Assembly (NCBI RefSeq): GCF_903946935.1
Contig: NZ_CAJAXH010000222.1
Coordinates: forward strand, 19,365-83,364
Direction: 5' to 3'
Origin: an uncultured Thiodictyon sp.
GTDB taxonomy: Bacteria; Pseudomonadota; Gammaproteobacteria; Chromatiales; Chromatiaceae
DNA length: 64,000 nucleotides
Shown: positions 38,641 to 44,336 of the stretch, piece by piece
Numbering within the stretch: the first letter of the stretch is position 1
How the letters are laid out: the number at the start of each line of letters is the position of its first letter
Made by a program: the position numbers and the translations under genes
The notes under the pieces: model-generated
What the model was told of the DNA's origin: nothing
What the model saw: only the letters and a program-made list of their open reading frames with translations
Databases searched by the model: none

Positions 38641-39117
38641 TCACTTCTCCCCCGCAATGTCGATTACTGTCGCGATCAGATCGCTGGACAGATAAAGCTC
38701 GGAAGCGGATAGCTGCCGGACATAAGGCTTGACAGCGTCGATCAATCCCGCCTGTTTCGCAGCCAACAATACGCCCAATGATCCAATGATCTCAATGCCG
38801 TTGATTCTCGCGACTCGCCGCCCACGCCGGTCATCGATCAGTAGCCGGTCCGCGGCCAACTGTCGATACAGAATCATCGCTTGCGTTTCGCCCAGATCCG
38901 AAACACCGTCCAGCAGAATCGGGTAAGACGGGTCGATCATTTTGACGCGGCCCTGGAGATACTCCTTTAACTGCCTGGCTTGCGGCTTATCGCCGATCAC
39001 GGCTTCGAGATAAACCGCCTCGGGGACGACGACCGCACCGAACAGACGGTCTAAGAGATGCAGCCCATGGCATGTCGCTAAGGCGATTAAGGCAGAGCAA
39101 TCCGCGACCAGGATCAT
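38641..39117 (-). CDS. DUF3368/PIN-like toxin
   Basis: The protein has 158 residues. ILVADCSALIALATCHGLHLLDRLFG gives the PIN-type first Asp, VYLEAV the acid at strand 2, and LLIDDRRGRRVARINGIEIIGSLGVLLAAK is the DUF3368 signature, with an acidic DD. It is expected to be an RNase toxin. The start overlaps the UPF0175 gene by 4 bases. Confidence 0.85.
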   Translation of the reverse strand: MILVADCSALIALATCHGLHLLDRLFGAVVVPEAVYLEAVIGDKPQARQLKEYLQGRVKMIDPSYPILLDGVSDLGETQAMILYRQLAADRLLIDDRRGRRVARINGIEIIGSLGVLLAAKQAGLIDAVKPYVRQLSASELYLSSDLIATVIDIAGEK

Positions 39118-39368
39118 TGGGTTCGTCCGATTGACTGCATTTCCTGGATGAGCTCATCACGGGAGATGTCAATAACGGGAATCCGCTGTGCCTTGCAGAC
39201 GGCAATGAACTCATAGATATTCATTCCCGCCAGTTCTGCGGCCTTGGCAAGCGTGACCCGAGTATCCTTGAACAAGGCCAGCGCGTAGGTCATCCGCATT
39301 TCCCGCGCGACGACATCCTGTGTCAACATCCCGACAAAATCATTGGGAAGATCGACAGCCACTTGCAT
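39114..39368 (-). CDS. UPF0175 family antitoxin
   Basis: The protein has 84 residues. The segment MTYALALFKDTRVTLAKAAELAGMNIYEFIAVCK contains the UPF0175 helix-turn-helix (ALxLYxxGxISLxxAAELAGMSxxEF). UPF0175 and DUF3368 genes are known partners. The antitoxin comes first, as usual. The gap 39369-39512 contains no gene. Confidence 0.85.
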   Translation of the reverse strand: MQVAVDLPNDFVGMLTQDVVAREMRMTYALALFKDTRVTLAKAAELAGMNIYEFIAVCKAQRIPVIDISRDELIQEMQSIGRTQ

Positions 39369-39512: not shown

Positions 39513-39760
39513 CTAACCCGCCCCCGCGCTCTCGGCCGGCGCCACCGGCCAAATGATGCACAGCCCATCAATGGTCGCAACCGCGGTTTCAGCGATCAGC
39601 GCCTGCACCTCGGGGCGACCGTAGGCCCCGTCCACGAGCCGATAGACCATCAGCGTCCGGTCGGTGGGGTGGACCAGCCAATATTCCCGCACGCCGGCCC
39701 GCTCGTAGGCATCGCGCTTCTCGCGATGGTCCCCGGCGGCGGTGCGCGGGGACAGTACCT
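39513..39760 (-). pseudogene. Truncated Uma2 family endonuclease, copy 2
   Basis: The open frame reads VLSPRTAAGDHREKRDAYER, then GVREYWLVHPTDRTLMVYRL, and ends ALIAETAVATIDGLC...SAGAG. This is the C-terminal half of the Uma2/DUF820 restriction-endonuclease-like fold, including EYWLVHP. The N-terminal half with the first catalytic residues is missing; the homology breaks at about 39757, beside a 9-bp tandem repeat. It is therefore not functional. Confidence 0.75.
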
Positions 39761-39806: not shown

Positions 39807-39865
39807 GGCACCAAGCGGAAAACGTGCTTCGCTTGGTCCCTTATTGCCGGATGCCTATGTTAGCT
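39807..39865 (-). other. Hairpin with attC-like core after the GTPase gene
   Basis: On the minus strand AGCTAAC follows the TGA stop directly, resembling an attC R'' core (one mismatch to RYYYAAC). About 18 bases on, GGGACCAAGCG pairs with CGCTTGGTGCC (one mismatch). No matching GTTRRRY core follows, so it is a truncated attC or simply a terminator-like hairpin. Confidence 0.35.
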
Positions 39866-41692
39866 TCATCTTTCGGTAAGGACTCTTCCCCAAGCAGACG
39901 CAATATGACGAAGCAAAGCATTGTGAATGGCGATTGACTCCGCTGAGCTTGTCCAAGACTGCCAGTGCGCAACGACTCGATTCTTATATCCAGGCCCTTG
40001 ACCCCATTCCGCTTCCATTGCCCGCCATATAGAGAAAAACGTCTTTACCTGCTCGACCCAGTGCTGCTTCGCCAGATCTCCCACGAAAGTGGAGAAAGCG
40101 CTCAACTGGGCAACGAAATCACATTCTAACGAGTCGACCTGATTCGTGAATTCGGGATATTTTCCTTTCAAGAGCGACAAGCCATCCTTGATGTACTGGG
40201 CTTCTCCTTGGCAAAACGAAACAGCATAGGTACGCGCAAGCTGGTTGATTGCCTCATACACATCAAGATTTACAAAAGAGCCTTGCCGATCTATGCTAGC
40301 GGCTAGCCTCCTGTGGTGTGTTCCCGAGAATACTTTGCCTATGTACTCGCCGAACGGTTTCCAATCCGGCGCATGAGCGTCGGCCCTTGTCCGCCAGTCA
40401 GCGACGAGTGTGTCTACGTCGCGTTTGAATGCTGAGACCTTGTCCCCCTCAGCCGATAGAAGTTCTTGCGATGCGGACACAAGCCTCGTCAGGTCGTTAA
40501 GCTTGCTATTGATGTAGGCAGATCTTCTCTCTTCCAGTACTCGCCAAATCTCCGATCCATGATCTATGCGGCTGTCAAATGTAATGACGTTTGGGGAAAT
40601 CCTGTAGTCATGGGAAATTTTGGTTGCAACCTGATCCTCCCGAATGCTGCGGCCAATGCCTTTTCTGTCGTGGATATCGGTTATATCCTCGTCGATATCT
40701 GCAACTTTATCCGACTCATCTTTATCCAAGATCAAAAGCGTTGCGTCACGCGCAATGCGGTTTCCAAGCCCGAGGCTTATGGCGAGGTCGAAAAAAGATC
40801 TACAGTCGGCGTCCGGCGCGTCGACAAAGGTCGAGCAAACTATAGGAAATATTCCCTCTGTATCAAGGATAGAGCGAATGTCCTCCCTGTGTATGTACGA
40901 GTCGATCCCTCTTGTATCAATTATCGACCAAGTTTGATCGCCTCGCTTTAAGGGAAAAGGACCACAAATCGTTATGAGCGACGGAATAGATACTTTGCTG
41001 TTCTTACCGTCGTTTATGCGAGCAAATGTCTCCTTGAGCCAGTCTTTCCACGCTTCCGCTTCTTCGGGGCTTGGCCACAACTCGGTTTTTGTTCTGCTCT
41101 CCAGCGCAAGGCAGGCATACATCAATTCGTCGACTTCCTCGACGGAACTGCAGTTCCTCGAAAATTCTAATGCCTTATCTGTGGAGCGCCACCTGCCATC
41201 CTCCTTCCTCTTTTCGATCGTGAGGCCAAGCATATTTCTGATGCAGCGAGTGAGTTCTTCACTTAAGAGGTTTCCGCCCTCATCTTCGTCAGAGACGTGC
41301 TTGTTTGCCTTTGCCCAGATAAACTCGGCAAAGTGTCTTACCACTCGCCGAACCTCATCACTGGATAGAGGATCAATCTTTATAGAATACTTCGTGGCAT
41401 ATTCAATCCTAACCTCACAAACGGTGACGCGACCCGCGCCTGTCTTGAGGAGATCAACAACCTCTTTATTATTAGATAGAGATTGAAGATCTACCGCCCT
41501 GCATATAGCAGAGGTCTTTCCCGCGCCGATCTTTCCTACAAACGCCGCGCGATAGTTAGTCTGATCCATATCAGCGCGAATCTTTATAATCGCAGTCTTG
41601 TTTTCGGTGAGTTGTGCCGAAACCTCCGCATTGACACTTGAGACAAGGTACTCTTCGATCTCAGCCAACAACTGATCTGCTTGCTCTTTCAT
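39866..41692 (-). CDS. Dynamin-like P-loop GTPase-type protein of unknown function
   Basis: The protein has 608 residues. FVGKIGAGKTS (53-61) is the P-loop. GAGRVTVCEV (85-94) is placed like the switch I threonine of dynamin-type proteins, WSIIDTRGID (256-264) is a DxxG switch II, and LLILDKDESDK (319-329) may stand in for the N/TKxD guanine motif. The N- and C-terminal parts are helical. Base composition differs from the neighbours: bases 40561-40620 have 25 G/C of 60, against roughly two thirds nearby, and codon use follows. There is no membrane helix. Large P-loop proteins of this build are often anti-phage or membrane-remodelling factors, but no family is recognised. It starts 34 bases after an attC-like site. 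Confidence 0.6.
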   Translation of the reverse strand: MKEQADQLLAEIEEYLVSSVNAEVSAQLTENKTAIIKIRADMDQTNYRAAFVGKIGAGKTSAICRAVDLQSLSNNKEVVDLLKTGAGRVTVCEVRIEYATKYSIKIDPLSSDEVRRVVRHFAEFIWAKANKHVSDEDEGGNLLSEELTRCIRNMLGLTIEKRKEDGRWRSTDKALEFSRNCSSVEEVDELMYACLALESRTKTELWPSPEEAEAWKDWLKETFARINDGKNSKVSIPSLITICGPFPLKRGDQTWSIIDTRGIDSYIHREDIRSILDTEGIFPIVCSTFVDAPDADCRSFFDLAISLGLGNRIARDATLLILDKDESDKVADIDEDITDIHDRKGIGRSIREDQVATKISHDYRISPNVITFDSRIDHGSEIWRVLEERRSAYINSKLNDLTRLVSASQELLSAEGDKVSAFKRDVDTLVADWRTRADAHAPDWKPFGEYIGKVFSGTHHRRLAASIDRQGSFVNLDVYEAINQLARTYAVSFCQGEAQYIKDGLSLLKGKYPEFTNQVDSLECDFVAQLSAFSTFVGDLAKQHWVEQVKTFFSIWRAMEAEWGQGPGYKNRVVAHWQSWTSSAESIAIHNALLRHIASAWGRVLTER

Positions 41693-41725
41693 TTTTTGTG
41701 CGGACCCTTCAGGCGAATATTAGGA

Positions 41726-41815
41726 GACTAACGTTTTCCACAGCCGACGCCATACGGCGGCCGGAACGGTTGCGGATGCCGCAGTATGGCGTCGGCGCTG
41801 ATACAATGGTTAGCC
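41726..41815 (-). other. attC-like integron recombination site
   Basis: On the minus strand this 90-base palindrome runs GGCTAAC - 12 nt - GCCGACGCCATAC - 28-nt centre - GTATGGCGTCGGC - 10 nt - GTTAGTC. The 13-bp arms are perfect. The outer cores each match the attC consensus (RYYYAAC and GTTRRRY) with one mismatch. The arm begins GCCGACGCC, as in the aadA attC. The TAA stop of the upstream gene (41810-41812) is inside GGCTAAC, which is usual for cassette genes. Size is in the attC range (about 57-141). No integrase or second full site is visible. Confidence 0.55.
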
Positions 41816-42505
41816 ATAATCATGTCCGCTGTCCGATAATATGCGGCTGGCGAAACCTGTGTATGCCCAGCGGACACAATGCTTCGTGCTTGATTTATGG
41901 ATCAAAAAGGCAAAGGGCAGAGAAATCTTTGCGTTCTGATCGTACTCGAAAATAATTTGCCAACCATCCAAGTCCATATCCTCCCATCCGTCAGGCATGC
42001 GGGCTGGTAGGGCCTTTCCGAGCATGCTCAATGAAATGGTTTGCCCTTCTGGTATTGCTTTATCTCTAATGGGAAAGCGAGCATCCGTGATGCCCTCAAT
42101 CACATGCTTCGCAGCGTCGTCGTCCATTCCCAATAGATCTTGCTCCTGGAAGGGGAGCGCGTTCGCTATCAACATGCCTGTTTTTGTGTAAAGAGGGCCT
42201 TGGTTCTCGTCAAATAAAGCGTTAGATTTGGCTTTGAGCCAAAGCCGTTTAAGCGTGTGTGAGCCGTTGTTGGCGGTGATTGTTAGGTTGATCTGGAAAA
42301 AATAATCGCCCGAGTCGATGCGCTTGACAGCCGCTTTGTCAACGTTGATTGCAAGATCGCTTCTTATGAGAGCCAGGCTGTCGTTTTCTTTCGGTAATTT
42401 CCTTTTCGAAAGTTGCGATTTCACAAAATAGACAAATACGGTGATAACGGTTATCCCAGCTCCACTGAAGAGCCACTCCTTGTTGTCCGCGATCCAGGTC
42501 ATCAT
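41810..42505 (-). CDS. Membrane-anchored protein of unknown function
   Basis: The protein has 231 residues. One membrane segment near the start (LFSGAGITVITVFVYFV, about 13-29) is followed by a basic stretch (KSQLSKRKLPKE) and a soluble, probably beta-rich domain of about 190 residues (FFQINLTITANNGSHTLKRLWLKAKS; WQIIFEYDQNAKISLPF). No family is recognised. Codon use and lower GC match the GTPase-type gene downstream and not the flanks. Its stop codon lies in the attC-like site. The two genes may act together at the membrane, which is inference from position only. Confidence 0.6.
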   Translation of the reverse strand: MMTWIADNKEWLFSGAGITVITVFVYFVKSQLSKRKLPKENDSLALIRSDLAINVDKAAVKRIDSGDYFFQINLTITANNGSHTLKRLWLKAKSNALFDENQGPLYTKTGMLIANALPFQEQDLLGMDDDAAKHVIEGITDARFPIRDKAIPEGQTISLSMLGKALPARMPDGWEDMDLDGWQIIFEYDQNAKISLPFAFLIHKSSTKHCVRWAYTGFASRILSDSGHDYG

Positions 42506-42861
42506 TTTGTAGAGGTCAAGCTTGGCGTTCGATAGCTAATGTGGCGCCTAAAGCGGCGCGGGGGTAAAGGGACTAAGGTCAATTATTTTTACGACGCTCC
42601 GGACCAGTCGCCCTGGCCATACCCGCCTCGGGTACAGTTGCAGGTGAAAATAAACCTCGCTCGACCACCTGTCAAGCCACGCAGAGAAAATCCGTTCATT
42701 CCGGGGTATGTTAAGAAACTTAACGAACCAGGCGGTAGGCTCTCCTTTAACCGCTGGATGGCGATCCGGACCGGGCAGTCCATCGTCGCCCATTCCGACC
42801 AGCGGCCTCGGTCATGGTTCCGGCCACCCCGCTGTATTCTGCGCCTCCGTGCTGACTGAGA

Positions 42862-44160: not shown

Positions 44161-44188
44161 GGTGCCTTGATCCCAGAAAGAGCAGTTG

Positions 44189-44318
44189 TCACGCCAAGGC
44201 GCCAAGCCCGCCAAGCCTTTTCAATGCGCTATCGGCGTCCCCCGTTTCACCTGCCGGGTGACGCTGACCGCTTGGCCAGCCTATTGCTTTTCTTGGCGTG
44301 CTTGGCGCCTTGGCGTGA
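44189..44318. repeat. MITE-like repeat, copy 2, between hyfG and hyfI
   Basis: This 130-bp element has the same 18-bp terminal inverted repeats as the copy at 31146-31274, the same AGAAAGAGC left flank, and a related internal ACCTGCCGGGTGA hairpin. It fills the gap between two genes that are normally adjacent, so it inserted into the hyf operon. Confidence 0.75.
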
Positions 44319-44336
44319 GCAATCGCGGATTGAGGT

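Follow-up and report, generated by a model that had tools for sequence, protein, structure and literature searches.

The segment at positions 42561–39848 (minus strand) of the window, as we call the whole 64,000-nucleotide stretch of DNA analysed here, from a Chromatiaceae-like bacterium, is very probably the remnant of a two-cassette integron array that lacks a neighbouring integrase, of the CALIN or single-attC kind. It keeps the cassette of P0002, then the cassette of P0001, the complete attC site of the first cassette and one attC half at each end. Integron integrases (IntIs) act at G^TT on attC, whose bottom strand is recombined in folded form, and so join promoterless cassettes head to tail. 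We infer the route of the segment into the locus as follows: the two cassettes would have been joined by IntI in an array carried by this bacterium or by a related one, and a chunk of that array would later have been stranded apart from the integrase, its two outer attC sites cut. The element is of a known kind and carries an undescribed cassette family.

Sequence and fold of the attC site

A palindrome of 90 bases (41726–41815) separates the genes of P0002 (231 aa; 41810–42505) and P0001 (608 aa; 39866–41692). Read on the minus strand, it consists of GGCTAAC (41815–41809, R''), 76 bases and GTTAGTC (41732–41726, R'), and it contains perfect 13-bp arms, GCCGACGCCATAC at 41796–41784 and GTATGGCGTCGGC at 41755–41743. 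The ends of attC sites are formed by an inverse core RYYYAAC and a core GTTRRRY, 57–141 bp apart (PMC3053210). Both outer elements of the window site deviate from these patterns by one mismatch each, with AAC and GTT intact and a spacing of 90 bp; the variants GGCTAAC and AGCTAAC also occur in real attC sites of relatives. The stop codon of P0002 (TAA, 41812–41810) lies within the first core at position +3 of R'', an offset that is shared by several cassettes of relatives. The palindrome, its arms, the cores with their single mismatches and the stop codon in the first core are thus all present as given in the preliminary description. The inner GCCGACGCC, which had been likened to that of the aadA attC, is also present, but it has no diagnostic value for attC on its own: it occurs on both arms of the window site because the stem is palindromic, whereas the aadA1 site has it on one side only.

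The attC has the same orientation as the two genes, on the minus strand, and therefore the folding 'bottom' strand is the plus strand of the window. The fold of the palindrome is 4.1 SD below that of shuffled sequences. In first-order random sequence, CTAAC/GTTAG cores paired around a hairpin of −17 kcal/mol or lower are expected 0.06 times per 64 kb, and the values for the actual hairpin in the window are −27 / −23.5. In 1.2 Mb of real DNA from this genome, such paired cores, around a hairpin of any strength, were found only at the window site and at the internally deleted attC of contig C136. In the constrained bottom-strand fold, six of the seven R positions pair, a spacer of 8 + 8 bases stays unpaired and a stem is formed; the L box is short and weak. 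The G beside the AAC of R' is present. Extrahelical bases, one of the features on which the earlier reading was to be judged, are found as two unpaired bases on the R''–L'' arm (41797–41798), but these are adjacent rather than separate. Set against the requirements published for attC sites (PMC2727003, PMC3053210), the features of the fold are right in kind. Excision by IntIs works best when six bases separate the extrahelical bases (PMC3053210); since the bulged bases of the window site are adjacent and not about six apart, the efficiency with which it would recombine is in doubt.

Covariance-model searches

For a model of the site, 32 sites beside integron integrases were gathered from relatives and from plasmid R46. 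The covariance model R1 was built from 15 of these 32, with the window site left out. It matches exactly the 90 bases at 41726–41815 on the minus strand with 19.5 bits, the top score of the window (next, 13.5 bits), at the attC-like site originally proposed; the same model gives 14.0 bits to a site that follows the oxa2 cassette in R46. Over 418 kb of the genome the four best matches are the attC of contig C216, the window site and the attC sites of contigs C136 and C154, in a set in which the stretches from C65, C154, C216 and C136 had been chosen through matches of another model, R2, so that only the remainder is unselected. A further 800 kb yielded no other match, and over the ∼1.2 Mb of the same genome in total R1 gave nothing but attC sites at 13.8 bits or above. 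The E value of the window site, 0.24 over 864 kb, is modest for large searches, and E values from this model are rough.

Other searches were less informative. The window site was absent from the output of an unfiltered cmsearch of 10 kb, in which the best match (7.1 bits) lay elsewhere; our guess is that the site was missed through the hit-length limit of the model, as its loop is 29 bases longer than that of the model. A search of the genome itself with R1 gave no match among the 150 of 2,027 candidates that were scored. The plain pattern RYYYAAC...GTTRRRY is uninformative at the scale of the genome (48 matches versus 128 in the reversed control).

Outer ends and cassette limits

The minus-strand sequence immediately before P0002, CCGCGCCGCTTTAGGCGCCACATTAGCT, is the right half (L'–R') of the attC type of the genus (42534–42561). 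It bounds the P0002 cassette on the upstream side, and the corresponding left half is absent. Its R' is ATTAGCT (42540–42534), with A where G is usual. A 14-mer within it, GCGCCGCTTTAGGC (42559–42546), has exactly three copies in the 6-Mb genome, namely in the attC sites at C154 and C216 and in the window. A right-half matrix trained on other genomes ranks this half fourth in the 418 kb, after three attC sites. What resembles another isolated right half of the genus type lies on contig C71 of the same genome (locus L087, 3069–3096; 23.7 bits compared with 24.4 bits for that of the window). At the other end, directly after the stop codon of P0001, is the left half (R''–L'') of a second attC, AGCTAACATAGGCATCCG (39848–39865, minus strand), again with the other half missing; within the 13 positions that follow a stop, a left-half matrix score at this level is expected about 0.0006 times. 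Both outer sites read as attC sites cut on their outer side, as expected for a piece broken from an array. The absence of the right half beyond P0001 and of the left half before P0002 counts against the remnant reading.

These sites delimit the cassettes on the minus strand. Cassette 1 (808 bp; 41732–42539) runs from TTAGCT to the G before TTAGTC, with core sites at both ends, and its gene, that of P0002, has an R' half upstream and its stop inside R'' of the complete attC. Cassette 2 (at least 1,873 bp; 39859–41731) starts with TTAGTC, so that R' of the complete attC, upstream of P0001, is its 5' limit, and its far end is truncated. The leader of cassette 2 resembles those of the relatives in Nitrincola A-D6 and Desulfoprunum. 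A cassette origin had been proposed for 39866–42505; the origin is borne out by the attC halves at both outer ends and by the cassette-borne relatives of P0001 elsewhere, but the limits of the cassettes are 42539–41732 and 41731 to about 39859, rather than those of the genes. The proposed gene pair also gives way to two separate cassettes, with no relative of P0002 near any relative of P0001.

The GC content of P0002 and P0001 is 48–49%, compared with 63–68% in the surroundings. Beyond P0001, the 3' part of a Uma2-like gene (39513–39760, minus strand) shows similarity to other copies that ends sharply at 39760; this position is the edge of the foreign segment, and the Uma2-like gene itself is truncated there. 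An empty-site comparison gave no clean before and after, as the place is occupied by other genes in congener G003. The syntenic stretch there (L127, 3620–5790, contig C413) carries contractile-tail sheath/tube-like genes instead of the cassettes, which marks a variable spot. Beside a Uma2 fragment is a toxin–antitoxin-like UPF0175/DUF3368 pair (38641–39368), in a stretch with a 90% identical counterpart at a different place in congener G004. On the other side of the segment, 44172–44336 belongs to a repeat family of ∼160 bp with dozens of copies in the genome and in congeners.

P0002 is an open frame with a hydrophobic N-terminal stretch and has no match in Pfam or NCBIfam. A weak PADLOC match to PDC-M43A (E = 1.2e-4) covers its N-terminal 42 residues only, no informative relatives were found and the single-sequence structure prediction is unreliable (pLDDT 43).

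Integron machinery of the genome and of congeners

The genome encodes an integron integrase on contig C31 (427 bits versus a cutoff of 265), in agreement with the suggestion that an intI be sought. The protein (L011, 159–1538) has 459 aa; its IntI domain is preceded by an N-terminal extension of ∼145 residues, and its gene adjoins the ATP synthase operon. No attC was found in the 20 kb read there. Four attC sites of the genus type lie on other contigs (C216, C65, C154 and C136), close to contig ends, and two of the four, including that of C136, are internally deleted. The search for more copies of the site, suggested at the same time, thus returned four other attC sites and none with the same palindrome. 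A genus attC model gave 8–62 matches in six of seven congeners and none in one. In the genus-type arrays of two of these (G003 and G007; L052 and L057), the geometry of the stop codon in the core is the same as in the window and the right half of the attC is the same as at the upstream boundary of the window segment, whereas the complete attC of the window is of another sequence type. As attC sequence follows taxon (PMC8352920), this suggests that the complete site came with a foreign cassette.

Alternative explanations of the site

The palindrome could be an intrinsic terminator, or another RNA hairpin within one operon, that looks like an attC by chance, and its strong stem and the position of P0002 and P0001 on one strand with a gap of 117 bases would agree with this. 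However, neither strand has a T-run after the stem and Rfam has no match for the palindrome, and the terminator was rejected on these grounds. Chance also fails to explain jointly the paired cores, the stop geometry, the model match, the two outer attC halves and the cassette-borne relatives, which makes an explanation of this kind very improbable. Equally hard to credit is a palindrome of the repeat type, such as a REP or the end of a MITE, with a fortuitous resemblance to attC: there are repeat families in the surroundings, but the whole site and its arms are single-copy in the 6-Mb genome, and a REP-type repeat was rejected because the palindrome has no second copy there. Since independent lines agree (the model, the two halves, the geometry of the stop codon, the integrase in the genome and the cassette-borne relatives), the assignment of the 90-base site as an attC is supported, as far as sequence comparison allows.

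A true attC could still belong to an array in use, if the segment bordered an active integron and the draft assembly had placed the integrase of that integron on a different contig. The intact integrase and the attC sites near contig ends fit such an arrangement; against it, the segment lies inside an 83-kb contig and not at its end, both outer attC sites are truncated and the sequence type of the complete attC differs from that of the genus. We consider an array in use unlikely, if less so than the chance resemblances above. The segment had been described as lying outside a visible integron, and this holds: it is internal to its contig, on which no integron integrase was found and hence no complete integron in the sense of attI and integrase beside the array. 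The preferred reading remains that of a remnant. Remnants of the CALIN or single-attC class have attC sites without a neighbouring integrase, as in the window, and a single-attC CALIN can be genuine, while the default threshold for a CALIN is two attC sites (IntegronFinder 2.0; PMC9024848). With one complete attC and two halves the window falls below this default, and for this reason we speak of a remnant of the CALIN kind and not of a CALIN by default.

Relatives of P0001 and their carriage in cassettes

P0001 is a P-loop protein with a predicted dynamin-like fold and no HTH domain. A scan of genome contigs with its sequence alone gave no relatives, and there was no match in phage records; a profile search from an alignment found 44 relatives. 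The closest intact relative, from Desulfoprunum benzoelyticum, shares 67% identity although it comes from another phylum. Its gene ends in GGC TAA C, at which an attC of 33.1 bits begins with the stop codon inside. In Nitrincola A-D6 the copy (68%) carries a frameshift, and the same attC site is present there in decayed form. A second branch, only 25–26% identical to P0001, is found in a 2,003-bp cassette that runs exactly from G^TT to G^TT. This cassette is 100% identical between N. alkalisediminis and N. tibetensis, 99.9% identical in Alishewanella aestuarii and 94% identical in Marinobacterium lacunae; its flanks, compared over 200 bases in each direction, are unrelated among the carriers. 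These comparisons are direct evidence, at the level of sequence, that relatives of P0001 move as cassettes, with recent transfer of the 2,003-bp cassette among three species of two genera. Of the cassette mobility that had been expected for the window segment, the part that concerns the P0001 family is therefore seen in relatives, while in the window both outer attC sites are truncated. In the cassettes from Desulfoprunum, Nitrincola, Alishewanella and Marinobacterium (L173, L176, L177, L179 and L181), the HTH-less P-loop protein is encoded alone, with the attC at or just after the stop codon and, unlike in the window, no relative of P0002 alongside.

In the tree, eight HTH-less forms, including P0001, fall together on one side of a branch (support 100/98). 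One further short call (L196) groups with the HTH-bearing forms and may have a mis-set start. The 29 remaining loci, nearly all of them long HTH-bearing forms, have no attC match above 12.7 bits. The association of the short form with cassettes appears strong but is not absolute, because an attC occurs near one long form, from Methylococcales (L194), and none was found at three of the short forms (L175, L178 and L180).

Predicted fold and possible function of P0001

The AlphaFold2 model of P0001 has a pLDDT of 89.9. The top Foldseek matches among solved structures are all bacterial dynamin-like proteins (probability 1.00, E about 1e-7), while identity to BDLP, SynDLP and IniA is 10–12% and the TM-score over the whole chain is below 0.4. 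By this comparison of folds the model agrees with the dynamin superfamily, whose members have a large GTPase domain and a helical stalk. The Walker A (G1) and DTxG motifs are conserved, as is a threonine in switch I (G2); the G4 position has LDK or LPR and no clear N/TKxD. P0001 is thus a predicted dynamin-superfamily-like GTPase, of a family with no name in Pfam or NCBIfam.

The family of this putative GTPase spreads in the form of a cassette, and the likeliest job of P0001 is defence. A defence role is plausible, at a probability near to or slightly under even, and finds its support in the neighbourhoods of relatives. Outside integrons, short relatives are located after hsdR–hsdM–hsdS in Pseudoalteromonas, and in Kistimonas one is beside an Mrr-type nuclease gene. 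In Vibrio metoecus (L178, 1754–12196) a relative is placed between hsdM/hsdS and genes for TniQ, Cas8/5f and Cas7f (I-F), an arrangement like that of a CRISPR-associated Tn7-like transposon. The dynamin-like protein DynA of Bacillus subtilis is reported to protect populations from phage (PMC8844932); P0001 is likened to such proteins by its predicted fold and its conserved motifs. The contrary view, that P0001 serves as a dynamin-like protein in house-keeping or stress and has no part in defence, agrees with the weak PADLOC matches of P0001 and with HTH-bearing relatives on plasmids that have no evident defence context, and it is at odds with the restriction, Cas and nuclease genes next to the short relatives; we give it an even chance. 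Somewhat short of even, in our estimate, is the broader proposal that a branch of these GTPases without the N-terminal, DNA-binding HTH domain seen in its relatives turned into a cassette gene and has spread over proteobacterial orders and into Desulfobacterota as a stand-alone antiphage module.

Through the remnant, integron mobility is linked to a protein family that has no name in Pfam or NCBIfam. It also presents a single-attC remnant that is recognizable as real by its truncated outer attC sites and that default filters would discard. If P0001 is antiviral, dynamin-type defence would be added to the cassette repertoire of integrons.
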